Shown here: one piece after another, positions 18,451 through 34,660 of the stretch
Layout of the letters: each line of letters opens with the position of its first letter
Numbering within the stretch: position 1 is the stretch's first letter
IMG/VR virus record: IMGVR_UViG_3300044949_001703
Coordinates: 1 to 49,470 of that record
Reading direction: 5' to 3' (one strand)
DNA from: a virus
Length of the DNA stretch: 49,470 nt
Position numbers and translations under genes: made by a program
Notes under the pieces: model-generated
Database searches by the model: none
The model's input: only the letters and a program-made list of their open reading frames with translations
Told to the model about the DNA's origin: nothing

Positions 18451-18451
18451 A

Positions 18452-20092: not shown

Positions 20093-20174
20093 ACGTAACC
20101 CCTTGGTACTAAATAACTTACAAGAATTGGGGCGGCCCGCCGGGTCGTAAGTGCTGCCGTAGCAACGACTTACG
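20093..20174 (-). repeat. R element copy 1
   Basis: Divergent left arm, GC core GGGGCGGCCCGCC, and a good right hairpin TCGTAAGTGCT/AGCAACGACTTACGA. Immediately downstream of the DUF932 gene end. Confidence 0.6.
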
Positions 20175-20202
20175 ATTACCGGTTTTGGGCCTACTTATAA
20201 TT

Positions 20203-21153
20203 TCAGATCGCGTTGGCAAACTCCATAGCCTTGGTGAGAGCCTTGATATTATCGTTGGCGTTCAAACCGAACCACAGAGAATCGAGCCGATTATCCTCGG
20301 TGCGACCCTTTGCATAGTTCAGATACTCATTGAACCCATTATAAGCAGCCCACCATGTACCACGCACACCCGTTGCCGATTGCTTCGGCCCTTCGATGCG
20401 AGTGAGAATATCGTCCATAATATTACGGGTACGAGTCTTGATATCATCATCAGCCGTACCCTCAATGTCGAGCATGGTTTTAACATATCGACGAACATCA
20501 CCCTGATTAAAATTCTTGCTAGCAAGGAAACGGAACTGATCCGCTGTAGCCTCAAACTCCGCATTAATATTGTCCATAATATCACGCACATTTTCCAGAT
20601 TGGTCTTGCTGGAACGTGTGTGACGAATACGGATCAACTTGCTACCACTACCCTTGCTATGAGCCATAGCCATAGTGTTAGCACAAACCACGCGAATCGG
20701 AGTGTATCCAACGCGAATGGCAGTTGTACCATCGTGGCTATTACTCAGCAGGATAAACTTGCAAACCTCATCACCACGCACAATCTCGCTATTGTCACGG
20801 TTGAGTTGAGCAAGCACCCAAACCTTTTGTCCGAAATGCAAAGAACCAGCAGTATGCAATACACACTCGCCAGCGTCGATAAAAGGCTGGAACCAGTCGA
20901 AAGCGTCAACATTCTGGAGCGGCGTATAACGCGGCCCCACAACGCCCAGAATACTACCATCATTTTTGCGATATGTGGCTCGGGCATCCACTGGTTCACC
21001 GTCACCAGTAAACAAATCCTTCAAACCAACTTCCCAATCCAGACCAGCGGCAGTAATTGCCTCCGAAACAGTGGGAGCCTCGTCCAGTTGATTCCCGAGT
21101 CCGTGCCAAGGAGTCTCACCAACAAACATCATTTGTTCAACAGCATGAGCCAT
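20203..21153 (-). CDS. DUF932 family phage/plasmid-like protein
   Basis: 316 aa. Starts MAHAVEQMMFVGETPWHGLG, then LDWEVGLKDL, the ILLSNSHDGTTAIRVGYTPIRVVCANTM block and C-terminal WWAAYNGFNEYLNY, which together identify the DUF932 (TIGR03299-type) family. Found in many large phages and plasmids; role unknown, suspected in replication or DNA metabolism. More GC-rich than its neighbours. ATG 21153 has AAGGGA upstream. Confidence 0.85.
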   Translation of the reverse strand: MAHAVEQMMFVGETPWHGLGNQLDEAPTVSEAITAAGLDWEVGLKDLFTGDGEPVDARATYRKNDGSILGVVGPRYTPLQNVDAFDWFQPFIDAGECVLHTAGSLHFGQKVWVLAQLNRDNSEIVRGDEVCKFILLSNSHDGTTAIRVGYTPIRVVCANTMAMAHSKGSGSKLIRIRHTRSSKTNLENVRDIMDNINAEFEATADQFRFLASKNFNQGDVRRYVKTMLDIEGTADDDIKTRTRNIMDDILTRIEGPKQSATGVRGTWWAAYNGFNEYLNYAKGRTEDNRLDSLWFGLNANDNIKALTKAMEFANAI

Positions 21154-21196
21154 TATCGTCCCTTTCGTGTTACTTGTTCTTCGTTCCGATGCTCTG

Positions 21197-21225
21197 ATTC
21201 TACAGTATGATATCGGCAAAGTCAA
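21197..21225 (-). promoter_or_regulatory. sigma70-type promoter with CCGATA box
   Basis: TTGACT (21220-21225), 17-bp spacer TTGCCGATATCATACTG, TAGAAT (21197-21202). Confidence 0.8.
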
Positions 21226-21254
21226 GCGGAAAGTTTGAGAAAAAAATACTTTTC

Positions 21255-21333
21255 CTAACTCGTTGTGGCATAAGGAGTTACGATGAGCGGGGCCGCCAGC
21301 CTCTCCCTAAGTGCTTACAGGCTATAGATTTAG
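21255..21333 (-). repeat. R element copy 2
   Basis: Two arm pairs around GGGGCCGCCAGCC. The stop codon of the phosphoribosyltransferase gene (21322-21324) lies inside its right hairpin, so it forms the 3' end of that mRNA. Confidence 0.7.
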
Positions 21334-21801
21334 AAGAGGTATGCCAAGATCACGCTGGCAAAGTTTAGATCCGGCCTCATCATCCTTGTATGCTGTTTCG
21401 TGAGGCAGATAACAATAAACTCCCATACAAATTGCTCGGGAATATTCTTTCTTAATTTTATTCTTAATATCTTTAATTGTACTGCCAGAGCAAATTAGAT
21501 CATCCACAATAACGTATCTAAAAGGAGCAACACCTTCTACCATATGCTCACTATAACACTTCTCACCCTTACGCACCAAAACAATATTTTTATTGAGCAA
21601 TTCTGCAATCTGTGGAACCACCATCATGCCACTAGCACCACAACAGGCTATGCTATCAAAACTATCACTAATTTTACGCAGATCACAAACGGCCCTAATA
21701 ATAATCTTATTTCGAACCTTGTGATTCAAAACATGGCAAGTGTGGCTAGCAGCCTGGATATACTTGCCTTCTTCGGTGCGATTAACGTTTGTAGTAATCA
21801 T
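21322..21801 (-). CDS. phosphoribosyltransferase-like protein
   Basis: 159 aa. VIVDDLICSGSTIKD (97-111) is the PRPP-binding loop of type I phosphoribosyltransferases; ACCGASGMMVVP and VLVRKGEKC fit the preceding fold elements. Probably salvages a nucleobase or makes an NAD precursor; substrate not shown. ATG 21801 is chosen because longer forms read into the tRNA. Confidence 0.75.
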   Translation of the reverse strand: MITTNVNRTEEGKYIQAASHTCHVLNHKVRNKIIIRAVCDLRKISDSFDSIACCGASGMMVVPQIAELLNKNIVLVRKGEKCYSEHMVEGVAPFRYVIVDDLICSGSTIKDIKNKIKKEYSRAICMGVYCYLPHETAYKDDEAGSKLCQRDLGIPLLNL

Positions 21802-21804
21802 AAA

Positions 21805-21893
21805 AACGGATGGTTGGATTCGAACCAACTAAAGAGAAGAATAAGAAAGGATGATTCCTTATGATAGATTGCTGTCCCACCAGCAGCATCCGT
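21805..21893 (-). tRNA. unusual tRNA, anticodon probably CAU
   Basis: Acceptor ACGGATG/CATCCGT (7 bp), T arm GTTGG-TTCGAAT-CCAAC, D arm GCTG/CAGC. The anticodon loop ATCATAA gives CAU (Met or Ile2), but its stem has a mismatch and the variable region is about 24 nt and pyrimidine-rich without clear pairing. Either a degenerate tRNA or a decorated one. Confidence 0.55.
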
Positions 21894-21906
21894 TCAGAAG
21901 AGAAGG

Positions 21907-22092
21907 CTAATCGTCAATTTCCTCAGTTAGATTGTGGTAATAGTTTTCCCAGTCCGAGTGGCTAACAGTTTCCTCATCATACTCATCATATTCCTCATCG
22001 CATGAGTACAAGTCATCACAGTCTCTAGCAAGGCTATCGTAATCAAAAGTATCGCTATCGTCACCGTAATAATCTTCGTTATCATATCTCAT
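21907..22092 (-). CDS. small very acidic protein
   Basis: 61 aa with about 40% Asp/Glu and many Tyr, two Cys. AAAGG precedes ATG 22092. A similar but longer acidic protein lies at 29337-29600. Possibly a DNA mimic, though nothing proves it. Confidence 0.6.
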   Translation of the reverse strand: MRYDNEDYYGDDSDTFDYDSLARDCDDLYSCDEEYDEYDEETVSHSDWENYYHNLTEEIDD

Positions 22093-22113
22093 AAGCCTTT
22101 CTCCTTTTCTACC

Positions 22114-22142
22114 ACTATACACCAAACCGGTCAAACTGTCAA
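22114..22142 (-). promoter_or_regulatory. sigma70-type promoter abutting tRNA-Lys
   Basis: TTGACA (22137-22142), 17-bp spacer, TATAGT (22114-22119). The -35 box begins at the base after the tRNA-Lys 3' end. Confidence 0.7.
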
Positions 22143-22215
22143 TGGGCCATGAAGGACTCGAACCTTCAACCTACAACTTAAAAGGATGCTGCTCTGCCAA
22201 TTGAGCTAATGGCCC
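22143..22215 (-). tRNA. tRNA-Lys (anticodon UUU)
   Basis: Acceptor GGGCCAT/ATGGCCC, D arm GCTC-AATTGGCA-GAGC, anticodon loop CTTTTAA, T arm GAAGG-TTCGAGT-CCTTC, discriminator A. Confidence 0.92.
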
Positions 22216-22225
22216 GTTTTCTACC

Positions 22226-22253
22226 ATTATACACTATGCTATCGGCTTGTCAA
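22226..22253 (-). promoter_or_regulatory. promoter of tRNA-Lys with CCGATA box
   Basis: TTGACA (22248-22253), 16-bp spacer AGCCGATAGCATAGTG, TATAAT (22226-22231). Confidence 0.8.
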
Positions 22254-22268
22254 CCCCAAAAACTTTAG

Positions 22269-22340
22269 TGACCCCACAGGGAATCGAACCCTGATTTTAT
22301 CCGTGAAAGGGATACGTACTAGCCGTTATACGATGGGGCC
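22269..22340 (-). tRNA. tRNA-Glu (anticodon UUC)
   Basis: Acceptor GGCCCCA/TGGGGTC, anticodon stem TATCC/GGATA with loop CTTTCAC, T arm CAGGG-TTCGATT-CCCTG, discriminator A. Confidence 0.92.
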
Positions 22341-22370
22341 ACACTCGCAACTCAAACGTCAGCCTCCGAA

Positions 22371-22441
22371 TTCCGAGGCTAGGATTCGAACCCAGACAAA
22401 GAGATCCAAAGTCTCCAGTGCTACCGTTACACCACCTCGGA
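22371..22441 (-). tRNA. tRNA-Gln (anticodon UUG)
   Basis: Acceptor TCCGAGG/CCTCGGA, anticodon stem GGAGA/TCTCT with loop CTTTGGA, T arm CTGGG-TTCGAAT-CCTAG, discriminator A. Confidence 0.92.
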
Positions 22442-22442
22442 G

Positions 22443-22515
22443 GGCCGATGGAGGGAATCGAACCCCCGACAGGTTGTTTACAAAACAACTACTCTACCAA
22501 CTGAGTTACATCGGC
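22443..22515 (-). tRNA. tRNA-Thr (anticodon UGU)
   Basis: Acceptor GCCGATG/CATCGGC, anticodon stem GTTGT/ACAAC with loop TTTGTAA, T arm GGGGG-TTCGATT-CCCTC. The discriminator is C, unusual for tRNA-Thr. Confidence 0.9.
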
Positions 22516-22524
22516 AATCTACAT

Positions 22525-22553
22525 ATCATAATCACGACGCCAACTCTTGTCAA
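22525..22553 (-). promoter_or_regulatory. promoter of the Thr-Gln-Glu tRNA cluster
   Basis: TTGACA (22548-22553), 17-bp spacer, TATGAT (22525-22530); no CCGATA. The TGA stop of the upstream gene (22550-22552) is inside the -35 box. Confidence 0.75.
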
Positions 22554-22903
22554 CGGCGGATCGGGTACGTTCCCGCTTGGGTCGGTTGTCCATTACCGTG
22601 TCCCGATGCTCCCTGTGACCCGTTGCCAGTTCCCAGCGTTGCTTGACCTTGATTTTCACGTTTTCGTATTTGCGGCGGCTTGTCATACCATAACCCATCG
22701 TTGTGAAGATACCACGTTTTATTATTATTAGGATCGTATGCTACTTGATACATGAAGTATTGTAGCGGTTGAGCCTGTTTTCTTTCAAGTCTAAACGTAT
22801 CCACTATCTCGGGATGAGAATCAGTATAATGCTTCATCTCTCCCCAAACTAACACTACCAATCCCAGTAGTGCTACGATTAGTTGTACCACAGTCTGTTT
22901 CAC
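22550..22903 (-). CDS. membrane-anchored protein with Gly/Gln-rich tail
   Basis: 117 aa from GTG 22903 with GGGAG upstream. Hydrophobic N-terminal anchor (residues 4-21), soluble middle with YDPNNNKTWYLHNDGLWYDK, then a low-complexity GQATLGTGNGSQGASGHGNGQ tail. Function unknown. A CCGATA box and TATAAA lie upstream (22917-22945) but the -35 is poor. Confidence 0.6.
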   Translation of the reverse strand: MKQTVVQLIVALLGLVVLVWGEMKHYTDSHPEIVDTFRLERKQAQPLQYFMYQVAYDPNNNKTWYLHNDGLWYDKPPQIRKRENQGQATLGTGNGSQGASGHGNGQPTQAGTYPIRR

Positions 22904-22961
22904 TTGTCAACTCCCTTTATACACCATTTATCGGCCATTCTCTAGCGAACCTTTAGTTTTT

Positions 22962-23041
22962 CTAAGTCCTTGCGCAGTAAGGCTTTACGTCGAGCCGGGC
23001 AGCCCGCCGCTCCCTAAGTGCTTACGCACAAAGGGTTTACG
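22962..23041 (-). repeat. R element copy 3
   Basis: Arms CTAAGTCCTTGCGC/GTAAGGCTTTACG and CTAAGTGCTTACGC/AAAGGGTTTACGG around CGGGCAGCCCG. Just downstream of the gene ending at 23050. Confidence 0.75.
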
Positions 23042-23049
23042 GCTAGTGA

Positions 23050-23286
23050 TTACATATCCTCTAGATTCCAACCAGCAGCATCTAATACCGCTGTACTTTT
23101 GAATACGCAAGTGTGACCATCAGCAGTTATATAATCCCTAAAACCACGCTCATCTATATAGAAATATTCGTCAATAGTATCATTATCATTTAATTCCCAC
23201 ACACTTTGTTGTGCAGCCTCGAAAGGATTCTTGTCGCTTGCAAAAATCATTTCTAGTGAACCACTCTTTACATAAAACTTAGCCAT
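23050..23286 (-). CDS. hypothetical protein
   Basis: 78 aa. AKFYVKSGSLEMIFASDKNPFEAAQQSVWEL, then VDERGFRD-type strand and LDAAGWNLEDM; a small alpha/beta fold, not recognised. Start overlaps the stop of the upstream zinc-ribbon ORF by 8 nt. Confidence 0.65.
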   Translation of the reverse strand: MAKFYVKSGSLEMIFASDKNPFEAAQQSVWELNDNDTIDEYFYIDERGFRDYITADGHTCVFKSTAVLDAAGWNLEDM

Positions 23287-23446
23287 TGTTAATCTCCGTG
23301 TGCATATATTTCATATCACAACCACATTCTTCACAAACGGGAGTACCATTATCTTGATACCAGTTAGGATTTATATTAACTTCATCCTCACAATCTGGAC
23401 ACTCCCATACCGCTCTAACTTTCCTATTATCAATAATATCCCACAT
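23279..23446 (-). CDS. small zinc-ribbon protein
   Basis: 55 aa. CPDCEDEVNIN ... PVCEECGCDM gives two CxxC pairs, a typical zinc ribbon. Role unknown. Confidence 0.65.
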   Translation of the reverse strand: MWDIIDNRKVRAVWECPDCEDEVNINPNWYQDNGTPVCEECGCDMKYMHTEINNG

Positions 23447-23456
23447 AATTTATTCC

Positions 23457-24161
23457 TTAGTGAGCAGGAAATAACACGTTAGCCAAACCCTTGACGCACA
23501 TATCACAACTAATACTATCCTTAGTACCAGTGCAAGTAATAACAGACCGACCACGACGAATCTCGGGACAAGTTACAAACTTTGTACCGTTCAGCACAAC
23601 CAGTTTCGGCAACGCTTTACGCCAAGCCTCGGCCTTGACTTTGCTCTTGGGTCGCTTGGGTGCAATCTTCATGTCACTATCACACCATGCAAACTTTTTG
23701 AAACCTTGGGCGAGAGCCTCACCCATATCATTATCATCATGCACACTAGCATATACGTTCATATACTTTTCCAGGCTAACAAGTCGGGAATCATAAATAT
23801 GAGTATAAAACCACATATCGGGCAGACTATCACCATCGTCAAGAATACTCTCACAAGCCCACGTTACATTAGCAACATAGTCAAGGTCAAGTTCGCCATT
23901 GAGAAACCAGTCGCCACGCTCATGCCAGCGAATAGACTTTTCTCGTCGCTTGGCTTCCAGAATCATAGCACGGATTTTATTCTTCTCAGTGATAACATTA
24001 GCGAAACCAGCAACACGAGCATTTTTATACTGATTCTCGGTGGCTTCCGCATAGCAACCATTGTTTAGATAGTCACAGTCACTCGGGCAAGTATCGCCAA
24101 CTGGACGCGAAACCACAATGCAACCCTTACCCAACTTGTCATTACCGTCAGCAGTTTTCAT
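23457..24161 (-). CDS. GP88-family phage protein
   Basis: 234 aa. N-terminal KLGKGCIVVSRPVGDTCPSDCDYLNNGCYAEATENQY with its four Cys, RWHERGDWFLNG and the C-terminal CPEIRRGRSVITCTGTKDSISCDMCVKG match the phage gene product 88 family as I recall it. Cys clusters at both ends suggest a metal or Fe-S site. Biochemical role unknown. Confidence 0.75.
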   Translation of the reverse strand: MKTADGNDKLGKGCIVVSRPVGDTCPSDCDYLNNGCYAEATENQYKNARVAGFANVITEKNKIRAMILEAKRREKSIRWHERGDWFLNGELDLDYVANVTWACESILDDGDSLPDMWFYTHIYDSRLVSLEKYMNVYASVHDDNDMGEALAQGFKKFAWCDSDMKIAPKRPKSKVKAEAWRKALPKLVVLNGTKFVTCPEIRRGRSVITCTGTKDSISCDMCVKGLANVLFPAH

Positions 24162-24183
24162 GATTGTCTCCCTGTGTCTACTG

Positions 24184-24212
24184 ATTCTACACTATAGTAT
24201 CGGCACAGTCAA
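24184..24212 (-). promoter_or_regulatory. sigma70-type promoter with CCGATA box
   Basis: TTGACT (24207-24212), 17-bp spacer GTGCCGATACTATAGTG, TAGAAT (24184-24189). Confidence 0.8.
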
Positions 24213-24237
24213 GGCAAAAACTTTCATAAAAATTACT

Positions 24238-24320
24238 CGTCATAAAGTGTTGATACACAAGGACTTACGATTCGCGGGGCCGCAGGTCTCGACGTAAGTG
24301 ATTACTGTATAAGGACTTAG
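24238..24320 (-). repeat. R element copy 4
   Basis: Arms degenerate, core CGGGGCCGCAGG, right hairpin GACGTAAGTGATTAC/GTATAAGGACTTAG. Its edge touches the 3' end of tRNA-Asp (24321). Confidence 0.6.
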
Positions 24321-24394
24321 CGAGAGTGACGGGACTCGAACCCGCAACCTCCAGCGTGACAGGCTGGCGATCTAACCAATTGATCTACACTCCC
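24321..24394 (-). tRNA. tRNA-Asp (anticodon GUC)
   Basis: Acceptor GGGAGTG/CACTCTC, anticodon stem CCAGC/GCTGG with loop CTGTCAC, T arm GCGGG-TTCGAGT-CCCGT, discriminator G. Confidence 0.92.
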
Positions 24395-24400
24395 AAAAAA

Positions 24401-24472
24401 TAGCCCCAAGAGGAATCGAACCTCTAATAATTGCTTAGAAGGCAACTGTTATATCCATTTAACTATGGGGCC
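24401..24472 (-). tRNA. tRNA-Arg (anticodon UCU)
   Basis: Acceptor GGCCCCA with 3' strand TGGGGCT, anticodon loop CTTCTAA (UCU), T arm AGAGG-TTCGATT-CCTCT, discriminator A. Reads AGA, frequent in this genome. Confidence 0.9.
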
Positions 24473-24513
24473 AAAAAACCGATAGCCGCCAGTTTGCACC
24501 AGCGGTCTATCGG
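24473..24513 (-). terminator. strong intrinsic terminator
   Basis: Minus-strand hairpin CCGATAGACCGC/GCGGCTATCGG (11 pairs with one bulge) followed by TTTTTT. Ends the transcript of the gene at 24536-24790 directly before tRNA-Arg. Confidence 0.85.
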
Positions 24514-24535
24514 AATTATAACATATAGATTATAT

Positions 24536-24790
24536 TCAGGCAACTGCTTCGGCTTCGGCTTCCACCTTACCATTGTGAGCATCACCGGCCTGCTTCGCAG
24601 TCACACCAGTAACACGGGCACGCCACACCTTGTAACCCTGCTCACTAAAAGCCTTGACCTCTCCAGCCTTGACATTCGCGTGAACATCGCTAGGCAGAGC
24701 ATCGGTCAGACAAGACGAGATCGAATCGACAACAGCATCACGATCCAGTTCATCAGCAACCACATCAACCACAAACGAAAACTTCTTCAT
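24536..24790 (-). CDS. hypothetical protein
   Basis: 84 aa. KKFSFVVDVVADELDRDAVVDSISSCLTDALPSDVHANVKAGEVKAF suggests a small alpha/beta domain; acidic Ala/Glu tail. ATG 24790 with AAAGGG upstream. GC-rich codons, perhaps highly expressed. Confidence 0.65.
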   Translation of the reverse strand: MKKFSFVVDVVADELDRDAVVDSISSCLTDALPSDVHANVKAGEVKAFSEQGYKVWRARVTGVTAKQAGDAHNGKVEAEAEAVA

Positions 24791-24835
24791 ATCAGACCCT
24801 TTCAAGTTAGTGTTAGTCTCAACCATCATGCTATC

Positions 24836-24863
24836 ATTCTACACTCTGTATCGTCATTGTCAA
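24836..24863 (-). promoter_or_regulatory. sigma70-type promoter with ACGATA box
   Basis: TTGACA (24858-24863), 16-bp spacer ATGACGATACAGAGTG, TAGAAT (24836-24841). Confidence 0.8.
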
Positions 24864-24893
24864 CACCACTACATGAATTATTCTTTGCTTTGT

Positions 24894-24974
24894 GTAAGTG
24901 CTTGTGGCATAAGGAGTTACGTTTTGCCGGCCCGCCAGCCAAGTCCCAAGTTCTTTGGTAGCAAGGCTTTAGGT
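24894..24974 (-). repeat. R element copy 5
   Basis: Arms GTAAGTGCTTGTGGC/ATAAGGAGTTACG and CCCAAGTTCTTTGG/GCAAGGCTTTAGG around CCGGCCCGCC. Abuts the stop of the bL12-like gene. Confidence 0.65.
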
Positions 24975-25345
24975 CAAGAGAGATATCCCTCACAACCCAA
25001 ATCGGCCAGATCACGCAGCAGATTCTCAGCCGCCTCGGGAGTCTTGAGAGTGATGCTCTGCTTGATACCGTTTTTGGCAGGAACAAACCTATCACCCTTC
25101 CAGCCACCCACCAACACATCCGTCCAATCCTTGCTCTCTTTCAAACCCCATCCCGTGTGAAGTCTGATAGCCTTGATACAGTGAATCCGGTTATCAAGAG
25201 TCATACCGTTAGTGATGGTAACGGTGCAACGCTGGTTCACACCCAACGCAACTTCAAGAGCGTTCACAATTTTTTCGTAAATATCAGCATTGGATCGCAG
25301 AGCAAGATCAAGAGCCTCACGAACACTCAGTTGCAGATTGATCAT
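24974..25345 (-). CDS. ribosomal protein bL12 C-terminal-domain-like protein
   Basis: 123 aa. Residues 53-75 (RIHCIKAIRLHTGWGLKESKDW) and 95-122 (KQSITLKTPEAAENLLRDLADLGCEGY) align by eye with the bL12 C-terminal domain (KINVIKAVRAATGLGLKEAKDLV ... AEALKKALEEAGAEV), the part that recruits translation factors. An unrelated helical N-terminal domain replaces the ribosome-binding half. May interact with translational GTPases; inference. ATG 25345 follows AAAGGG. Confidence 0.65.
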   Translation of the reverse strand: MINLQLSVREALDLALRSNADIYEKIVNALEVALGVNQRCTVTITNGMTLDNRIHCIKAIRLHTGWGLKESKDWTDVLVGGWKGDRFVPAKNGIKQSITLKTPEAAENLLRDLADLGCEGYLS

Positions 25346-25347
25346 AT

Positions 25348-25755
25348 TCAAACCCTTTCTTCCAAAATATAAACTTGTTTGCTGTTAGTCAGTAAAGTAG
25401 CGTACTCGCTATCATCCCAAACGAATTCGTTGCAGTCACTTTCTCGTCGCCAGTGCGGATCACGAATAGGATTATAGTATAACTTTTCTAGGTTGTCAAC
25501 CCCTATTTCGTTATTAATCATAACCTCGTCACACTTTACCCATCCACTCACATCATGCACACCAGCCTCGTATACCTGTTTAGCCTTATTTATCTTATTC
25601 ACCAATCGGCACTTAATCATTTCCAACTGATAATATGCCGGATCATAATAATAAACATCTAACTTCTCACTGCCACACATGGCCTTTACTTGCCAGTGCA
25701 TATAGTTAGAACCAGCACCAAGATGAAATCGTATTTCGTAGTGTGTGCGTTTCAT
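25348..25755 (-). CDS. hypothetical protein
   Basis: 135 aa. Begins KRTHYEIRFHLGAGSNYMHWQVK and contains Cys/Asp pairs and many aromatic residues; not recognised. Upstream partner of the bL12-like gene. Confidence 0.65.
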   Translation of the reverse strand: MKRTHYEIRFHLGAGSNYMHWQVKAMCGSEKLDVYYYDPAYYQLEMIKCRLVNKINKAKQVYEAGVHDVSGWVKCDEVMINNEIGVDNLEKLYYNPIRDPHWRRESDCNEFVWDDSEYATLLTNSKQVYILEERV

Positions 25756-25792: not shown

Positions 25793-25992
25793 CTTTAAAA
25801 ATACCCACACTGGCCTACGTCCAGTAGCGTTTTAGACTTCCACCGCCTATAGGGTATATTTTCGCTGACTACAGCCACTCTAGCCAAATCCGAAGGATTA
25901 GGAGAAACAAGGTTGGCTTCCGCCATACTCGACCAACATTTCAGATAGCCTCTTTTGATATCATTGTGGCTATCCCCAAACCTTGCTTCCTA
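25793..25992 (-). ncRNA. candidate small RNA ending in an S element
   Basis: A promoter (25993-26020) fires into about 190 nt with no good gene before the next promoter. The transcript would contain a hairpin-rich part and an S element (25861-25911). A 43-codon ATG frame (start MAEANLVSPNPSDLARVA) crosses the S element but lacks a Shine-Dalgarno; it is noted as an alternative. Confidence 0.35.
25861..25911 (-). repeat. S element (copy 5)
   Basis: Minus strand: hairpin CCTAATCC-TTC-GGATTTGG, then GGCTGTAGTCAGCGAAAA. Confidence 0.7.
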
Positions 25993-26047: not shown

Positions 26048-26129
26048 CGTAAGTTGTTTAGCAGTCAGGGTTTACGACTCGGCGGGCTGCCCCGCTTGCC
26101 CTAAGTCCTTGTGGGATCAGGAGTTACCG
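26048..26129 (-). repeat. R element copy 6
   Basis: Arms CGTAAGTTGTTTAGC/CAGGGTTTACG and CTAAGTCCTTGTGGG/TCAGGAGTTACCG around GCGGGCTGCCCCGC. The stop codon of the next gene (26117-26119) is in the right hairpin. Confidence 0.7.
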
Positions 26130-28563: not shown

Positions 28564-28591
28564 ATTCTATAGTGTAGAATCGGCATGTCAA
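28564..28591 (-). promoter_or_regulatory. sigma70-type promoter with CCGATT box
   Basis: TTGACA (28586-28591), 16-bp spacer TGCCGATTCTACACTA, TAGAAT (28564-28569). Confidence 0.8.
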
Positions 28592-28619: not shown

Positions 28620-28699
28620 CGTAAACCTTTATGTGGTAAGCACTTACGTCAAATCGGGCCGCCGGCCTCGCCCTAAGTCCTTGGCTGGCAAAGACTTAG
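28620..28699 (-). repeat. R element copy 7
   Basis: Arms CGTAAACCTTTATG/GTAAGCACTTACG and CTAAGTCCTTGGC/CAAAGACTTAG around CGGGCCGCCGGCC. Downstream of the gene ending at 28714. Confidence 0.7.
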
Positions 28700-29121: not shown

Positions 29122-29156
29122 AAAAACCTTTCTGTTAGTTAACCCTTAATACGCTT

Positions 29157-29185
29157 AGTCTACACTACTAATCGACACTTGTCAA
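29157..29185 (-). promoter_or_regulatory. sigma70-type promoter with TCGATT box
   Basis: TTGACA (29180-29185), 17-bp spacer AGTGTCGATTAGTAGTG, TAGACT (29157-29162). A TGA stop (29182-29184) is inside the -35. Confidence 0.75.
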
Positions 29186-29600: not shown

Positions 29601-29612
29601 GACTTTTCCTTT

Positions 29613-29789: not shown

Positions 29790-29818
29790 CTTCGTTTCTC
29801 CGTTGGGGTGATACGCTT

Positions 29819-29846
29819 AGGATACCATAATTATCGGCCAACGCAA
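29819..29846 (-). promoter_or_regulatory. promoter with CCGATA box, weak -35
   Basis: TTGCGT (29841-29846), 16-bp spacer TGGCCGATAATTATGG, TATCCT (29819-29824). An AT tract with TTTGGCATGGAA lies upstream. Confidence 0.6.
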
Positions 29847-29930
29847 GCAAAATCTTTGGATTTTTTGAAAAATAATTCCATGCCAAACCACAAAAATTTT
29901 TGCGGCACGCGGTTTGCGTCAAGAGTCGTT

Positions 29931-30010
29931 GTAAGTCGTTATCCAGTAAGGAGTTACGACGAGCCGGGCAGCCCCGCTTTCCCTAAGTACTTACGGGGTA
30001 AGGCTTTACG
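29931..30010 (-). repeat. R element copy 8
   Basis: Clear copy: GTAAGTCGTTATC/GTAAGGAGTTACG, core CCGGGCAGCCCCG, CTAAGTACTTACG/GTAAGGCTTTACG. The TGA of the next ORF is the TCA just after it. Confidence 0.8.
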
Positions 30011-30094
30011 TCAACTATTCACAATCCATGCAGTTATACATCCGATCACAAATGTACAAAAGAACACTACATAGTCAAACATCGTCGCGTTCAT
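30011..30094 (-). CDS. single-helix micro membrane protein
   Basis: 27 aa: MNATMFDYVVFFCTFVIGCITAWIVNS, nearly all transmembrane. Overlaps the upstream ORF by 20 nt; ends at an R element. Confidence 0.45.
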   Translation of the reverse strand: MNATMFDYVVFFCTFVIGCITAWIVNS

Positions 30095-30194
30095 TTTCCG
30101 ATTCCTTGGGAAAAACTAAATCACTCAAGGCATAACACGCTGTTACACCCACGATAATACCAAAAACTAAACTATAAGGCTCGAACAAATCCAT
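30075..30194 (-). CDS. small membrane protein
   Basis: 39 aa. Hydrophobic helix (8-25) then an acidic tail. No firm function. Confidence 0.5.
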   Translation of the reverse strand: MDLFEPYSLVFGIIVGVTACYALSDLVFPKESENERDDV

Positions 30195-30211
30195 CCGTGG
30201 ACTCCTTTTTA

Positions 30212-30400
30212 TTATTCAGCCCGAACAAAAACTTCCTTATTACCCTTAATATTCTCCCGGCAAACAGTAACAAGCCAATTACGGCCACTACCATCCTCGG
30301 GACGAATACCATTAATCAGCCCCTTAAACTCACCCACAGTCACAACCTTACGCTTCGCCATCATCTCACAGAGCCACGAATAAGAATAAACCTTAACCAT
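30212..30400 (-). CDS. small hypothetical protein
   Basis: 62 aa, basic. KVYSYSWLCEMMAKRKVVTVGEFKGLINGIRPEDGSGRNWLVTVC could be a compact nucleic-acid-binding fold. GGAG before the ATG. Confidence 0.6.
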   Translation of the reverse strand: MVKVYSYSWLCEMMAKRKVVTVGEFKGLINGIRPEDGSGRNWLVTVCRENIKGNKEVFVRAE

Positions 30401-30427
30401 TTTTTAAAATCTCCTTAAAAGTGTTAA

Positions 30428-30739
30428 TCAACCCTGAACAACCATAGCATCCATAAACGGATATTCTTTACCGTTAATCTTAACATACCAAGTAAAATCC
30501 CGCTGGTAAACTCTCACCGGACTATACTGATTAATTCTATCCTTCGTGGTCACAGTCTGCCAACCCCCACTATTAAGGGTATACGTACCATTACTATTAA
30601 TCTTTACCACATAGGTATTATGCAACTTAATTGCCACAGTATTATCATGTAGAATTTCAGCGTAGGTATTATTGCCAATCTTTCGACTATCCTTGTTACG
30701 CTTGCCACGAACCATACTAACCGCTTCGGCGTGAGTCAT
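30428..30739 (-). CDS. conserved phage protein of unknown function
   Basis: 103 aa. RKIGNNTYAEILHDNTVAIKLHNTYVVKINSNGTYTLNSGGWQTVTTKDRINQY is a common beta-rich phage family (GNNTY...SGGW-T-TTK-RIN). Role unknown. Confidence 0.75.
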   Translation of the reverse strand: MTHAEAVSMVRGKRNKDSRKIGNNTYAEILHDNTVAIKLHNTYVVKINSNGTYTLNSGGWQTVTTKDRINQYSPVRVYQRDFTWYVKINGKEYPFMDAMVVQG

Positions 30740-30763
30740 TTTCTTCTCCCTAGTGTTATCGGT

Positions 30764-30791
30764 ATTCTACAGGCCAAACTTTAAAAGTCAA
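30764..30791 (-). promoter_or_regulatory. sigma70-type promoter, CCGATA downstream of -10
   Basis: TTGACT (30786-30791), 16-bp spacer, TAGAAT (30764-30769). CCGATA (30757-30762) lies downstream of the -10. Confidence 0.7.
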
Positions 30792-30796
30792 ACGCT

Positions 30797-30846
30797 TTTC
30801 GCTGACTACAGCCACACCAGCCAAACCCGAAGGGTTAGGTGGGACA
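30797..30846 (-). repeat. S element (copy 6, best copy)
   Basis: Minus strand, directly after the stop codon of the next gene: hairpin CCTAACCC-TTC-GGGTTTGG, then GGCTGTAGTCAGCGAAAA with a GCTG-TAGT-CAGC hairpin. Confidence 0.75.
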
Positions 30847-30847
30847 A

Positions 30848-31045
30848 TCAATCCCAACCGTTAGCCTTGTATGATTCGCTGAACACTTGAACAGTGTGGA
30901 TTACTTCTGACCTACGTTCCTCAAAATGCTTCCACACTTTCCAAGCGTTATCCCGGTACTGTAGATAGGTGGCGGTCCAAAGATTTTCAACATCGTTTCG
31001 CGTTTTGCAATCGTTCAGGCTTTCCAGAATCAACATCTCGTTCAT
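30848..31045 (-). CDS. hypothetical protein
   Basis: 65 aa, helical (LNDCKTRNDVENLWTATYLQYRDNAWKVWKHFEERRSEV), not recognised. Very strong GGAGG 5 nt before the ATG; an S element follows the stop at once. Confidence 0.65.
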   Translation of the reverse strand: MNEMLILESLNDCKTRNDVENLWTATYLQYRDNAWKVWKHFEERRSEVIHTVQVFSESYKANGWD

Positions 31046-31072
31046 CGTTTCCTCCGTTGTGATTATATCGGC

Positions 31073-31100
31073 ATTATACAGACTGATCTTTAGGTTGCAA
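31073..31100 (-). promoter_or_regulatory. sigma70-type promoter, CCGATA downstream of -10
   Basis: TTGCAA (31095-31100), 16-bp spacer, TATAAT (31073-31078), then GCCGATA (31066-31072). Confidence 0.7.
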
Positions 31101-31152
31101 GCGAAATTTTCAAATATAATTTCATGCCAAACGAAAAAATATTTTTTGTGCT

Positions 31153-31231
31153 CTAAGTCTTTATGGCATAAGGAGTTACATCAAATTTGCCAGCCCCGTT
31201 GATCGTAAGTCCTTACGCAGCAAGGATTTAC
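31153..31231 (-). repeat. R element copy 9
   Basis: CTAAGTCTTTATGGC/ATAAGGAGTTACA, core GCCAGCCCCG, CGTAAGTCCTTACGC/GCAAGGATTTACAACG. Confidence 0.75.
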
Positions 31232-31257
31232 AACGAGTGATTTATAGTGTACGGATG

Positions 31258-31581
31258 TCACCCCTCCGAAAAGGGGGAGACTTCCTCACCACAAGCAAGG
31301 ATAGCAGCATATTGTGAGGCAAGAGCGTCAACACGTTCACGCGAACCGGGTTTGCCAACCTTCACGATCATACGATCCTCACCCCCCACCATGCGGGGGT
31401 CAACTTTTTCCTTCTTCTTCTTTCCGATATTTCGTAACGCCTTACGATTGAACTTCAAAACCTTCTCACTATGGATGGGGCCATATACCCCCTCAGCGAG
31501 GGAGGGTTGGTGAACGATTGCGATACCCTCAAAATGAGCGAGGATACCACGACGAAATTCATTCAGGATTTCAGATTTCAT
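31258..31581 (-). CDS. hypothetical protein
   Basis: 107 aa. Basic middle (KFNRKALRNIGKKKKEKVDPRMVGGEDRM), helical start (KSEILNEFRRGILAHFEGIAIVH). Not recognised. The coding sequence holds three C-rich/G-rich hairpins, the last containing the stop codon. Confidence 0.65.
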   Translation of the reverse strand: MKSEILNEFRRGILAHFEGIAIVHQPSLAEGVYGPIHSEKVLKFNRKALRNIGKKKKEKVDPRMVGGEDRMIVKVGKPGSRERVDALASQYAAILACGEEVSPFSEG

Positions 31582-31658
31582 TTGTTTATTCCTTGTGATT
31601 GATTGAACGTATGGATTGTAGCAAACTCAAAGTACCCGTGTCAAGGCCAGTCTATAGG

Positions 31659-31889
31659 TTAGATGGCCTCTCCATCGTCAAAGCCCGGAATATAGTCGGG
31701 AAGATCATTGTATTCTTCCATCGTCATGGCATTATCTTCCAACGCCTTTACCATAGCCTCATCTTCCACCACACCACACCATTCCTTGCAATCCATGCAA
31801 ATCCCAATTCGATCACTACCCTCACCAGTCTCAAAACCACAAGCAGCACCACAGCAGTCAGAAATCAGATCGTAATTCAGATTTTCCAT
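31659..31889 (-). CDS. SDCC/zinc-ribbon small protein (family copy 1)
   Basis: 76 aa. LISDCCGAACGFE...CMDCKEWCG and a C-terminal DYIPGFDDGEA. Two shorter paralogues lie at 32568-32723 and 33585-33740. Likely zinc-binding. AAAGGATA leader before the ATG. Confidence 0.7.
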   Translation of the reverse strand: MENLNYDLISDCCGAACGFETGEGSDRIGICMDCKEWCGVVEDEAMVKALEDNAMTMEEYNDLPDYIPGFDDGEAI

Positions 31890-31933
31890 TTTTATATCCT
31901 TTTTGGTTTCTTTCTCTTTCTCTTTATATCGAC

Positions 31934-31961
31934 ATTATACAGACCAAAATTGAGTTTTCAA
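31934..31961 (-). promoter_or_regulatory. sigma70-type promoter, TCGATA downstream of -10
   Basis: TTGAAA (31956-31961), 16-bp spacer, TATAAT (31934-31939), then GTCGATA. Confidence 0.65.
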
Positions 31962-32103
31962 GCAAAATCCTGAAATTTTTATGTCAAGAGATTTTGACAA
32001 AACTTTTGGTAATTTTCGTCTGGTTCGGCACGCGGTTTGCTATGGCAAATATCATGCCAAACGAAAAATATTTTACGGCATGGTATGTGCGTCATGAGTG
32101 ATT

Positions 32104-32183
32104 GTAAGTCGTTACACAGCAAGGGTTTGCGTCAAACGGGGCAGCCCCGCGACTCCTAAGTCCTTACGCCGTAAGGGTTTACG
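32104..32183 (-). repeat. R element copy 10 (best copy)
   Basis: GTAAGTCGTTACAC/GCAAGGGTTTGCG, core CGGGGCAGCCCCG, CTAAGTCCTTACGCC/GTAAGGGTTTACG. Arms are imperfect inverted repeats and the core is a perfect GC palindrome with one central base. Confidence 0.85.
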
Positions 32184-32222
32184 TCAAGTCGTTGTACAGT
32201 AGTGTACAGGCGTACACCCCCA

Positions 32223-32369
32223 CTACAGTGGGGATGCACAAGCGTACACTGAGCCGAATGGCACGTTATGCTGATTAGCATATACTGACCGAGCATCCAT
32301 CCAATCCTTAGCAAGTACCATGCCAAGATAGAAATCATTATCTGCACTATAGATATAGTATGTTTTCAT
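32223..32369 (-). CDS. small duplicated protein (copy 1)
   Basis: 48 aa: MKTYYIYSADNDFYLGMVLAKDWMDARSVYANQHNVPFGSVYACASPL. Near-identical to the gene at 33947-34093 (6 differences). Unknown function. The stop codon is inside a CCCCAC/GTGGGG hairpin; a purine-rich leader precedes the ATG. Confidence 0.7.
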   Translation of the reverse strand: MKTYYIYSADNDFYLGMVLAKDWMDARSVYANQHNVPFGSVYACASPL

Positions 32370-32542
32370 TTGTTTCTCTCTTTCTCTCTAATAACCCTAG
32401 TGGTCATGCCATTTGGATGATGGGTGATTATAAAGTATTCTTCCTCTTTCTTTCGGAACTCCTCAACTTTAAACGGTGGACGATTTTTCCAATATTCTTG
32501 AGCCTTGATTCTGGACTCATGCTTATGATAATCGAACTTCAT
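32366..32542 (-). CDS. small basic/charged protein
   Basis: 58 aa: highly charged helix HESRIKAQEYWKNRPPFKVEEFRKKEEEYFIITHHPNGMTTRVIREKERNK. ATGA coupling with the next gene. The leader is GA-rich. Confidence 0.6.
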   Translation of the reverse strand: MKFDYHKHESRIKAQEYWKNRPPFKVEEFRKKEEEYFIITHHPNGMTTRVIREKERNK

Positions 32543-32567
32543 TTTTTTCTCTCTTTCTCTTTCTTTC

Positions 32568-32723
32568 TTAGAACTCACCATCATCGTAACCGGGAATATA
32601 GTCGGATTCCATCGAATCGTCAACCACAATTTCACAATGCTCACCACAACATGAGCAGATCATATGATCCACATTACTCTCAACATTACAACAATCCGAA
32701 ACGTAAAAAACCATCTTTTCCAT
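32568..32723 (-). CDS. SDCC/zinc-ribbon small protein (family copy 2)
   Basis: 51 aa: VFYVSDCCNVES...MICSCCGEHCEIVV...SDYIPGYDDGE. Paralogue of 31659-31889 and 33585-33740. GA-rich leader upstream of ATG 32723. Confidence 0.7.
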   Translation of the reverse strand: MEKMVFYVSDCCNVESNVDHMICSCCGEHCEIVVDDSMESDYIPGYDDGEF

Positions 32724-32748
32724 CTTTCTAACTCTCTTTCTTTCTAAC

Positions 32749-32776
32749 ATTATACCAAATATTTTTTAATTTTCAA
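32749..32776 (-). promoter_or_regulatory. sigma70-type promoter
   Basis: TTGAAA (32771-32776), 16-bp A/T spacer, TATAAT (32749-32754). The -35 directly follows a GGGGG hairpin arm and contains the TGA of the upstream gene (32773-32775). Confidence 0.65.
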
Positions 32777-32922
32777 CCCCCATTATTGGGGGACTCAGCC
32801 TTTTTCTTTTCGGCTTGTTCTTTTCTCCATTGTTGAACCCACGCAACGTAACGATCAACGTCACCATCGCGGTTATCCTTAGAGTAATCGTATCCATCGT
32901 CAGAACCGTAAAACTTTTTCAT
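32773..32922 (-). CDS. small hypothetical protein
   Basis: 49 aa: MKKFYGSDDGYDYSKDNRDGDVDRYVAWVQQWRKEQAEKKKAESPNNGG. The last codons are made by a CCCCC-AATAAT-GGGGG hairpin. Charged and soluble, unknown role. Confidence 0.6.
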   Translation of the reverse strand: MKKFYGSDDGYDYSKDNRDGDVDRYVAWVQQWRKEQAEKKKAESPNNGG

Positions 32923-33159
32923 TTTCAACTCTCTCTTTCTTATGCCTATATATAGTGCAGGTTCTGTGCCAAAGTCGGAAATATTTTTTGATGATTTTCC
33001 TCGGGAAAAACGCTATGATATTTTTTGTGCCTAGAGATTGAGCGTAGCATTTTGCAACAGTGTGTAGCATTTTGCGTTAGTGATTTTGGCCGTGTCTCAC
33101 ACATAGTGTAGCATTTTGCAACACCCCCCATTAGAACGTATGCCTAATAAATAGGCCAT
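32923..33159 (-). promoter_or_regulatory. intergenic control region with three direct repeats
   Basis: No gene. It holds a promoter-like TTGGCA-16 bp-TATAGG (32945-32972) whose TGGCAC...TGCA also resembles a sigma54 site, and three direct repeats GTAGCATTTTGC(AACA) at 33044-33059, 33064-33075 and 33108-33123. The repeats could be operator or iteron sites. Confidence 0.45.
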
Positions 33160-33240
33160 CGTAAGTGCTTATGCCGTAAGGGTTTACGTCAAATCGGCCT
33201 GCCCTTTTAGCCCTAAGTGCTTATCCCATAAGGGTTTATG
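33160..33240 (-). repeat. R element copy 11
   Basis: CGTAAGTGCTTATGCC/GTAAGGGTTTACG, core CGGCCTGCCC, CTAAGTGCTTATCCC/ATAAGGGTTTATGG. Confidence 0.75.
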
Positions 33241-33276
33241 GCTAGCGACCCTTACTGTACAAATGTACCACACCCC

Positions 33277-33513
33277 CTATCGGGTAGTGATCACTCGTAC
33301 ATGGTCAACCATGTCACCTACGCTAGCGTGAACCCAATCGTAGAAAGATTCAAGATCAGTAGGATTCACATTATCCCACACCCTACGCATCACATCCTTG
33401 GACGAATACACCCAACGGATTTTCTTTTCATCATGGAACCGAAACAGATTCACTTGCACATTCCACCCCTTTGAGGGATTGCTAAAAGCCACATTCTTAA
33501 GGATCGTTTTCAT
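33277..33513 (-). CDS. hypothetical protein
   Basis: 78 aa: MKTILKNVAFSNPSKGWNVQVNLFRFHDEKKIRWVYSSKDVMRRVWDNVNPTDLESFYDW. Not recognised. TAG stop within an ACCC-GATA-GGGG hairpin; GA-rich leader. Confidence 0.65.
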   Translation of the reverse strand: MKTILKNVAFSNPSKGWNVQVNLFRFHDEKKIRWVYSSKDVMRRVWDNVNPTDLESFYDWVHASVGDMVDHVRVITTR

Positions 33514-33538
33514 TCTATTCTCTCTTTCTCTTTCCAAT

Positions 33539-33566
33539 ATTCTACCAAAATTTTTACGATTCACAA
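33539..33566 (-). promoter_or_regulatory. probable sigma70-type promoter
   Basis: TTGTGA (33561-33566), 16-bp A/T-rich spacer ending TTTTGG, TAGAAT (33539-33544). -35 follows a GGGGG arm, like the promoter at 32749-32776. Confidence 0.55.
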
Positions 33567-33584
33567 CCCCCACAATGAGGGAGG

Positions 33585-33740
33585 CTAGCAAGCCTCACCA
33601 TCATCATAACCGGGAATATAATCATTTTCGTAAACTTCTGTGATAATCTCACAGTGTTCACCACAAGCAGAACACACTTCGTGATCCTGATCACTCTCAA
33701 CATTGCAACAATCCGAAACGAAAAAAACCATCTCTCTCAT
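33585..33740 (-). CDS. SDCC/zinc-ribbon small protein (family copy 3)
   Basis: 51 aa: VFFVSDCCNVESDQDHEVCSACGEHCEIITEV...NDYIPGYDDGEAC. Closest to copy 2. GAGAGAAAG leader before the ATG. Confidence 0.7.
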   Translation of the reverse strand: MREMVFFVSDCCNVESDQDHEVCSACGEHCEIITEVYENDYIPGYDDGEAC

Positions 33741-33771
33741 AACTTTCTCTCTCTTTCTTTCTTATGCTTTC

Positions 33772-33799
33772 ATTATACCATACTTATCGACAATTGCAA
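33772..33799 (-). promoter_or_regulatory. sigma70-type promoter with TCGATA box
   Basis: TTGCAA (33794-33799), 16-bp spacer TTGTCGATAAGTATGG, TATAAT (33772-33777). Confidence 0.7.
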
Positions 33800-33861
33800 G
33801 AGAAATCTTTGGCTTTTTTAAAATATAATTTCATGCCAAATGAAAGAAAAAATAACTATCT

Positions 33862-33941
33862 GTAAGTCCTTATGCTGTAAGGCTTTACGTCAAAAATGGC
33901 AGCCCGATTTGTCGTAACTCCTTACGCGGTAAGGCTTTACG
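33862..33941 (-). repeat. R element copy 12
   Basis: GTAAGTCCTTATGC/GTAAGGCTTTACG, core TGGCAGCCCGA, CGTAACTCCTTACGC/GTAAGGCTTTACG. Confidence 0.8.
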
Positions 33942-33946
33942 TCAAC

Positions 33947-34093
33947 CTATAGAAGTGATGCACAAGCGTACACCGAGCCAAATGGCACGCTATGCTGATT
34001 AGCGTATACTGAACGGGCATCCACCCAATCCTTGGCAAGTACCATGCCCAAGTAGAAATCATTTTCCGCATTGTAAATATAGTAGGTCTTCAT
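33947..34093 (-). CDS. small duplicated protein (copy 2)
   Basis: 48 aa, almost identical to 32223-32369, including the DNA sequence around LAKDW and NQH; each copy is followed by an R element. A recent duplication. Confidence 0.7.
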   Translation of the reverse strand: MKTYYIYNAENDFYLGMVLAKDWVDARSVYANQHSVPFGSVYACASLL

Positions 34094-34245
34094 CGATATA
34101 CCTTTCCTACAATCTTTAGGTTAGAAATGTTTAGACCAGTTTCGCTACTAATCATTCGTACAGCAGCAGCATAGCAATCGGCAAACCATGTGCCAACGTA
34201 TTCCATCTTGCCAAAGTCAGAAACGCTATAAGCGTAGAATTTCAT
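34090..34245 (-). CDS. small hypothetical protein
   Basis: 51 aa: MKFYAYSVSDFGKMEYVGTWFADCYAAAVRMISSETGLNISNLKIVGKVYR. Similar overall plan to the duplicated 48-aa protein (aromatic strand, then helix). ATGA coupling. Confidence 0.6.
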   Translation of the reverse strand: MKFYAYSVSDFGKMEYVGTWFADCYAAAVRMISSETGLNISNLKIVGKVYR

Positions 34246-34460
34246 CACGAAACTCCCATGTAGGAAGCGTTCTCAACGCAGTAATCGTAGAACATATCGT
34301 TTAGAACACGTTCACAGTTAGACTCGGTGAGCATCTTAGACTCATTGATAGAGTCACACTCAGCATAGAAACGCTGGGTTGAAACCTCATAAACAATCGT
34401 GCAAGCGTAAGCCTCACTACCCCAAACCCTAGCCTTAAGATCAACAAACTTCTTCAACAT
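34245..34460 (-). CDS. hypothetical protein
   Basis: 71 aa: LKARVWGSEAYACTIVYEVSTQRFYAECDSINESKMLTESNCERVLNDMFYDYC. Small alpha/beta fold, unknown. ATG 34460 preceded by a GA-rich leader. Confidence 0.6.
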   Translation of the reverse strand: MLKKFVDLKARVWGSEAYACTIVYEVSTQRFYAECDSINESKMLTESNCERVLNDMFYDYCVENASYMGVS

Positions 34461-34491
34461 CTCTTTCCTTCTTTCTTTCTCTTGTGCTTTC

Positions 34492-34519
34492 ATTATACCA
34501 TATTTATCGGCTACGTCAA
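34492..34519 (-). promoter_or_regulatory. sigma70-type promoter with CCGATA box
   Basis: TTGACG (34514-34519), 16-bp spacer TAGCCGATAAATATGG, TATAAT (34492-34497). Confidence 0.8.
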
Positions 34520-34581
34520 TAGGCTTTCTTGAAAAATTCTAAAAATAATTCTGTGCCAAATCACTAAAAATATTACTCATC

Positions 34582-34660
34582 CTAAACCCTTGTGATATAA
34601 CGAGTTACGTCAAATCGGCCCACTCCACTCGTCATAACTCCTTATGCGATAATGATTTAG
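34582..34660 (-). repeat. R element copy 13
   Basis: CTAAACCCTTGTG/ATAACGAGTTACG, core CGGCCCACTCC, CATAACTCCTTATGCG/ATAATGATTTAG. The most degenerate copy, nearest the strand switch. Confidence 0.6.

Follow-up and report, generated by a model that had tools for sequence, protein, structure and literature searches.

A repeated four-box element in one gene block of an environmental phage is a putative composite operator in helical phase with early-type promoters

What does a palindrome-rich repeat do when it recurs, copy after copy, at the gene boundaries of one block of a phage genome? The question is raised by a 49,470-base virus record (IMG/VR record IMGVR_UViG_3300044949_001703, positions 1 to 49,470; the whole stretch is called the window below), in which 13 copies of such an element lie between 20.1 and 34.7 kb. 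The original prediction, made from the letters of this stretch, described the copies as imperfect double hairpins and offered RNA processing, insulation, binding of a phage protein and recombination as possible roles. Intergenic palindromic phage repeats are readily taken for hairpins, and the several hundred copies assembled here permitted a sharp test. The results suggest that each copy is, quite probably, a composite operator, that is, an upstream DNA site rather than an RNA structure.

All 13 copies were found, each 77 bp long, with starts (defined as the first T of box 1) that differ by 1-5 bp from those listed earlier (Table 1). As read from the printed copies, the boxes start at 0, +15, +52 and +67 in 13/13 copies, giving spacings of 15, 37 and 15 bp. 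Four boxes per copy had been predicted and were present, but the proposed wording TAAG-NN-YTTA did not hold; TAA-NNNN-TTA fits better, and some boxes are degenerate, for example in the copy at 20096. A profile made from the 13 copies recovered 12 of them in one orientation, the copy at 24243 scoring better when reversed, and the genes adjoining all 13 are on the minus strand. With a 201-bp stretch around one copy as the query, other copies were found at E values down to 7e-20. The copies were also said to be absent to the left of 20 kb and from the late module, which was the case apart from a weak partial match at 19998-20035.

The element is not local to the window. Relatives were gathered in two ways, with a half-element pattern that matched at least 118 viral-contig stretches and, independently, through relatives of a DUF932 protein used as the marker. 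Searched with the profile of the 13 copies, 205 sequences (among them the window and seven of its pieces) yielded 830 non-overlapping matches, distributed over 170 of the sequences. Of these matches, 766 were near full length and 688 fitted four boxes; merging of identical copies left 531 distinct copies in related environmental phages, and 498 of these were used in flank tests, the other 33 lying too close to a locus end. In relatives the median match score was 77 bits, whereas shuffling of 80 loci gave no score above -27 (these loci had also served to refine the matrix, and both strands were read). Nearly all distinct copies were as rigid as those in the window: box 1 to box 2 measured 15 bp in 530/531 and box 3 to box 4 measured 15 bp in 525/531, and box 2 to box 3 measured 38 bp in 479, 37 bp (the window form) in 43, and 34, 36, 39 or 40 bp in 9. 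Loci found by protein only (n = 46, 231 copies) gave 15/38/15 in 225 copies and 15/38/14 in 6.

In the window and in three long records, the elements occupy a single block of 14-19 kb. All 18 matches in G002 (243,821 bases) fell within 197.5-216.5 kb, about 15 in G014 (186,542 bases) at 77.2-94.1 kb, and 12-13 in G012 (153,585 bases) at 90.4-104.0 kb. Among 50,697 phage records there was no megablast match to the window. The best DUF932 relative among named phages was 44% identical, and its 22-kb end gave just one weak, partial match (E 0.001). No published description of the element was recognised in the literature searched, which does not establish its absence from print.

The copies are tied to promoters. 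The 80 loci examined contained 495 strict promoters, and 236 of these had an element within 200 bp upstream, compared with about 3% expected by chance. These promoters are strong, early-type and sigma-70-like, and lie downstream of the element beyond a short, A/T-rich linker. From 392 element-promoter pairs (at least 10/12 matches, within 160 bp), 229 non-redundant pairs were obtained, 189 of them at 10-75 bp. The 189 distances from the element to the -35 box peaked at 20, 30-31, 41-42, 51-52 and 62-64 bp, with a best period of 10.7 bp (nR2 77; the highest value among 2,000 jittered sets was 11.6), and 154 of them fell within 2 bp of phase (47% expected). The phasing was found separately in the protein-selected loci (75 distances, period 10.4, nR2 40 vs 14.7) and in the pattern-selected loci (108 distances, period 10.8, nR2 35 vs 12.6). 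In the window, where every copy had been said to precede the next minus-strand promoter, this was true of 8/13 copies (at least 9/12 matches; -35 boxes at 29, 30, 30, 30, 31, 53, 63 and 63 bp), held at 32105 only at a distance of 143 bp and at 20096 only with 9/12 matches, and failed within about 140 bp at 22963, 29932 and 33162. As a separate observation, a CGATA motif lies between the -35 and -10 boxes in many promoters, both in the block and in the relatives, whether an element is present or absent.

The element also has a direction. Tests of polarity, locus signature and covariation were carried out on the 78-bp class, which has the 38-bp middle spacing; the 13 window copies, with 37 bp, stand outside it. 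A matrix trained without similar copies named the promoter side in 261 of 290 held-out copies, the test set comprising copies flanked on a single side by a promoter 10-75 bp away. Phase and polarity bear on the possibility that the copies are transcriptional or topological insulators between units, bound by a general architectural protein and comparable to BIME. Their location between transcription units, their GC-rich palindromic centre and their dyad-like layout would suit an insulator, but such a role needs neither helical phase to the -35 box, nor polarity, nor the switching of specificity between sister phages described below, and we consider it very improbable.

The consensus half, TTGNCGTAAGTCCTTA-N5-TAAGGACTTACGNCAA, is able to fold, and copies come after stop codons and a tRNA 3' end, both of which favour an RNA element that would end, process or protect transcripts at their 3' ends, either as two tandem hairpins or as one long hairpin. 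Pairing in the two-hairpin form was analysed in 60 diverse copies, a subset of 173 non-redundant promoter-oriented copies. In these, 72.9% of the cells were paired, compared with 74.3% in shuffles (500/500 shuffles as high), double changes in the stems were below chance (18 cells vs 31.1), and RNAalifold predicted no pairs. Among 309 copies less than 80% identical, oriented by a rough gene-direction rule, most variable stem pairs were at or below independence (0.31 vs 0.44 for 3-21, 0.41 vs 0.49 for 4-20), and small excesses appeared at flanking pairs, e.g., -1/25, 46/84 and 52/78. When the statistics were repeated with promoter orientation on the 173 copies, observed pairing was 0.408 vs 0.432 under independence in half 1 and 0.385 vs 0.441 in half 2. 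The mean folding energy of the copies, -26.7, was no better than the -27.5 (sd 0.27) of column shuffles; half 2 alone, like the whole element, folded worse than column shuffles. No Rfam match was found at the window elements, at the gathering threshold or at E<=1. Two tandem RNA hairpins were rejected on covariation, folding and RNAalifold together. The original prediction had itself named a lack of compensatory changes in related phages as one of two findings that would jointly refute its double hairpins, and none was seen in related copies; a role in RNA processing is likewise unsupported, with stems that do not covary and no consensus structure.

It had been noted that no U-tract follows the copies, and we agree. 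None of them was overlapped by the 10 terminator-like sites detected at 19.8-35.5 kb (11.7 expected by chance), and a terminator was rejected on this sequence pattern. A long hairpin or cruciform, in which box 1 pairs with box 4 and box 2 with box 3, was neutral in mean pairing (0.446 vs 0.446), and in the 60 copies 75.9% of the cells were paired, compared with 75.5% in shuffles (138/500 shuffles as high). Such a structure is favoured by some covariation at 20/57, 21/56 and the centre; it is unsupported over its whole length, a few inner pairs covary, and it retains a slight residual chance. An RNA element of either form would leave the phasing unexplained, and the odds are heavily against it.

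Copies of the same locus resemble one another at particular places. Similarity within loci exceeded that between loci with z 11.8 at the inner box cores and z 10.0 at the GC centre, and the signature was weak elsewhere (z 3.0 at the outer cores, 2.9 at TAA/TTA, 2.5 at the linkers; 300 label shuffles, with loci taken as genomes and related phages not fully independent). Since the linkers are hardly more alike within a locus than between loci, recent duplication is not the main reason for this signature.

The linkers are equally relevant to site-specific recombination, in which the halves would be tyrosine-recombinase core-type sites and the arrays gene-swapping cassettes. Inverted arms around a variable 5-7 bp centre suit a core site (consensus of 444 copies; bacterial sites), and in planctomycete and Treponema assemblies a closely similar palindrome, TAANTCCTTA-N5-TAAGGANTTA, is flanked by a tRNA gene on one side and a tyrosine integrase gene on the other. 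The integrase beside it was identified by Pfam (PF00589) in L208 and by reading the sequence in L205, L240, L243 and L245, the integrase-like fragment of L205 not being recognised by Pfam. In L205, L208, L210 and L245, from two planctomycete assemblies, the palindrome continues with CGACAAG like the phage consensus. By our estimate, however, any palindrome with 10-bp arms would match somewhere in 257 billion bases. Recombining sites need matching overlaps, whereas the linkers, which would be the overlaps, were not more alike within a locus (0.306 vs 0.295 between loci), and PF00589 was found above the Pfam cut-off in 0/24 virus records, which are fragments. A single weak PF00589 match in one record lies within an open reading frame that by eye is no integrase. 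The element is like the att and attC sites of tyrosine recombinases in its inverted arms and short variable overlap, and unlike them in having neither an integrase above the cut-off nor matching overlaps. Recombination would also leave the 10.7-bp phasing and the polarity unexplained. The recombination points suggested earlier are without positive evidence inside the phages, as judged from linker identity and the integrase search of these fragments, and we regard them as most unlikely.

Further evidence came from sister phages in which the element is replaced. Seven of them (L162, L165, L168, L169, L176, L178 and L179) gave no match to the TAAG element and carry another class, termed TGCC, in which TGCCAAAATGGCA occurs twice around a GC-rich spacer before promoters. 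The arms of this class (TGCCAAAATGGCA) were 29 bp apart in 50/50 spacings under 60 bp. Upstream of 43 promoters in eight loci (L156 added), an arm was located at 13-17 bp in 7 cases, at 23-26 bp in 33 and at 45-52 bp in 3, with a best period of 9.6 in this small set of related members. Loci for gene comparison were chosen by DUF932, including 39 comparison loci chosen by DUF932 identity, 38 of which carry TAAG elements (the exception is L180). Three genes of the window, a phosphoribosyltransferase-like gene (21322-21828), a gene at 23050-23286 and a GP88-like gene (23457-24161), were found in 7/7 TGCC loci and 39/39 comparison loci. Upstream of the DUF932 gene, 32 sequences contained a TAAG element in 20 cases, a TGCC element in 7 and neither in 5. 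By sequence comparison, the same genes are kept in sister phages while the putative operator class is replaced. In L061, L163, L195, L199, L202 and L204, the upstream regions have half elements, boxes at other distances or another GC-rich palindrome, and these variants are perhaps further operator classes.

Among the roles offered originally, binding of a phage protein is the one supported, by rigid spacing, helical phasing, polarity, a genome-specific signature and operator swapping. We infer that a sequence-specific protein, of phage or host, would form a single rigid assembly of about 80 bp that covers the four TAA-NNNN-TTA boxes together with the GC-rich centre. This assembly would lie just upstream of an early-type sigma-70 promoter, polar to it and at distances that hold one helix face, and would most likely touch RNA polymerase (alpha-CTD or sigma) across the short A/T-rich linker; direct contact is proposed because phase dependence and polarity are its predictions. 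The 12-18 sites may thereby serve the small accessory genes of one 14-19 kb block under one control, as a single regulon. Since core promoters stay close to consensus whether or not an element is present, we lean slightly toward shut-off or holding of strong early promoters over classical activation; shut-off or holding of strong early promoters is reported for phi29 p4. The TAAG and TGCC sets of these large environmental phages could represent a coordinated switch of operator specificity, like heteroimmunity, in which sister lineages exchanged the entire operator set and retained their genes and core promoters; it would be run by a protein of an unrecognised family, possibly with a specificity derived from tyrosine-integrase core sites. 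This reading of the two sets is tentative and falls somewhat short of probable.

Several observations weigh against the operator reading. Taken by itself, half 1 has a slightly more favourable folding energy than its column shuffles (-7.79 vs -7.42, sd 0.18), and the covariation score of the long hairpin, 0.083 vs 0.074, was reached by 44/500 shuffles and exceeds that of slid versions. Mirror pairs covary in the 173 copies (0.71 vs 0.55 at 21/56, 0.82 vs 0.71 at 20/57, 0.65 vs 0.58 at 36/41). The columns of these pairs also hold much of the locus-specific signature, and such co-change would be expected of a symmetric site whose two halves follow the same protein; our confidence in an operator was nevertheless lowered slightly by it. 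An in-phase promoter is missing at 5/13 window copies, and for 60/231 protein-selected copies no promoter of 10/12 matches is present within 75 bp. Core promoters seem strong enough unaided: the mean -35 match was 5.49/6 with an element (404 promoters) and 5.69 without (400), and the -10 match was 5.08 and 4.99, respectively, in a comparison whose picking pattern already favours good promoters. The incomplete independence of the loci in the signature test counts in the same direction, as do the searches for a binding protein. These gave no HTH_3 or HTH_17 match (0/20 records), one HU/IHF match (1/20 records), the integrase result given above and no gene within 10 kb of the DUF932 gene that tracks operator class.

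Other searches for a binder were made by family and by gene comparison. In Pfam and PHROGs scans of 121 of the 198 called proteins of one TGCC-class record, no convincing binder was seen among the 25 most frequent families, and a gene comparison between four phage records gave no convincing candidate. An L12-like gene appeared linked to class between G002 and G015 (72% and 36%) and was rejected, as it was not linked over the TGCC loci (6/7, median 69%). The helix-turn-helix (HTH) gene at 35141-35383, which may be the one suggested earlier for gel shifts, was recognised by neither Pfam nor NCBIfam; its product has a counterpart of 74% identity over 72 residues in a phage of the other operator class and is therefore unlikely to set specificity. 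A search for the p4 family matched 0/20 records, and its controls were likewise without a match. A gene for a subtilisin-like protease (L264:16611-18218, minus strand) adjoins the array in G002 and has relatives in 17/24 records. The protein starts with ..ESLENRKLLS, which we take to resemble the start of planctomycete secreted proteins, a host-specific domain not being confirmed by NCBIfam.

The element was compared with known systems as they are described in excerpts of the papers cited. The PeSL cassettes of T4-type phages are promoter-early stem-loops, reportedly the subject of work by Arbiol in 2010 and Comeau in 2014. Like them, the element is a repeated unit at the gene boundaries of a small-gene block, next to strong sigma-70-like early promoters. 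PeSLs appear as promoter-terminator motifs in a title cited by PMC4503421. Unlike PeSLs, the copies here have no terminator-like site, no hairpin covariation and no consensus structure, and their relation to the promoter is helically phased. Operators of the phi29 p4 type have a site on a fixed helix face upstream of the promoter, and the element resembles them in this respect (period 10.7 bp here). From its site upstream of RNA polymerase, the p4 protein stabilises the enzyme at the promoter, and reference 30 of the same paper, by its title, concerns activation and repression at two promoters via the same p4 residues (PMC11476376). Unlike phi29, with four p4 sites between two promoters (PMC11476376), the present phages have 12-18 elements spread over the block.

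The stoperators of Cluster A mycobacteriophages share with the element many copies per genome, mostly one orientation to transcription (261/290 held-out copies here, relative to their promoter) and a motif that shifts between genomes (PMC6550527, PMC9283540). Stoperators are short asymmetric sites of 13 bp distributed across the genome (PMC6550527), whereas the copies here are 77-78 bp long, with four boxes and a GC centre, and lie in one block, tied to promoters in phase. The protein that binds stoperators is an immunity repressor, which halts elongation. The ESAS of Cluster K mycobacteriophages are also imperfect inverted repeats that recur many times in front of some of the phage genes; as described in the part of PMC3203893 used here, they have 17-bp arms and a variable 4-13 bp spacer and stand by a 13-bp sequence (SAS) at translation starts. 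Unlike ESAS, the element has nearly invariant spacing, and its anchor is the promoter. None of PeSL, stoperators, phi29 p4 sites and ESAS fits on every feature tested.

That two-hairpin pairing is not conserved and helical phase to the promoter is conserved means that phage operators can be sought from sequence alone, with no host in culture. The exchange of operators at unchanged genes offers a way to ask, in lineages known from metagenomes only, how specificity shifts across an entire set of binding sites, and it predicts that the regulator should be recoverable with either operator class.

Table 1. Element copies, promoters and marker gene in the window (the strand of a copy is that on which the genes and promoter it would serve are read; boxes and distances in bp)
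Feature	Position	Strand	Remarks
Element copy 1	20096..20172	-	boxes 0/15/52/67; promoter matches only 9/12, at 36 and 109 bp
Element copy 2, upstream of DUF932 gene promoter	21256..21332	-	TTGACT..TAGAAT, -35 at 30 bp; site compared in relatives
Element copy 3	22963..23039	-	no promoter of at least 9/12 within about 140 bp
Element copy 4, directly after tRNA-Asp gene	24243..24319	-	weakest copy, better reversed; -35 at 30 bp
Element copy 5	24895..24971	-	-35 at 31 bp
Element copy 6	26050..26126	-	-35 at 29 bp
Element copy 7	28622..28698	-	-35 at 30 bp
Element copy 8, top score against the profile of the 13	29932..30008	-	no promoter of at least 9/12 within about 140 bp
Element copy 9	31154..31230	-	-35 at 53 bp
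Element copy 10	32105..32181	-	promoter 11/12 at 143 bp
Element copy 11	33162..33238	-	no promoter of at least 9/12 within about 140 bp
Element copy 12	33863..33939	-	-35 at 63 bp
Element copy 13, first of array in transcription direction; GC centre degenerate	34583..34659	-	-35 at 63 bp
DUF932 gene promoter, TTGACT-CCGATA-TAGAAT	21197..21225	-	
Promoter, 11/12 match, 30 bp from copy 7	28564..28591	-	
Promoter, 11/12 match, 31 bp from copy 5	24836..24863	-	
Promoter, 11/12 match, 63 bp from copy 13	34492..34519	-	
DUF932 / TIGR03299 protein gene served by copy 2	20203..21153	-	ATG at 21153 picked by eye; listed ORF (open reading frame) reaches 21225

The window contains other features near the array. 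A second repeat (plus strand ..GCTGACTA..CAAATCCGAAGGATTAGG..) is located at 19896-19947, 25859-25910 and 30796-30847, the third copy being slightly different, and a loose pattern for it matches upstream of 42 promoters in the window and its relatives. Pyrimidine tracts repeated at 31399-33761 (e.g., CTCTCTTTCTCTTTC, plus strand) correspond to purine-rich leaders near the starts of minus-strand genes. At 35550-36167, on the opposite strand and adjoining the array, lies a sigma-70 region 2-like gene (E 9.7e-5, just under the Pfam cut-off), and the gene at 24974-25351 has a partial match to the ribosomal L7/L12 C-terminal domain, under the curated cut-offs. The window also carries a phage tmRNA gene (tag GETQLALAA) and nine tRNA genes, at 934-1287, 1499-1574 and 18451-24473, with six of the tRNA genes inside the element block.

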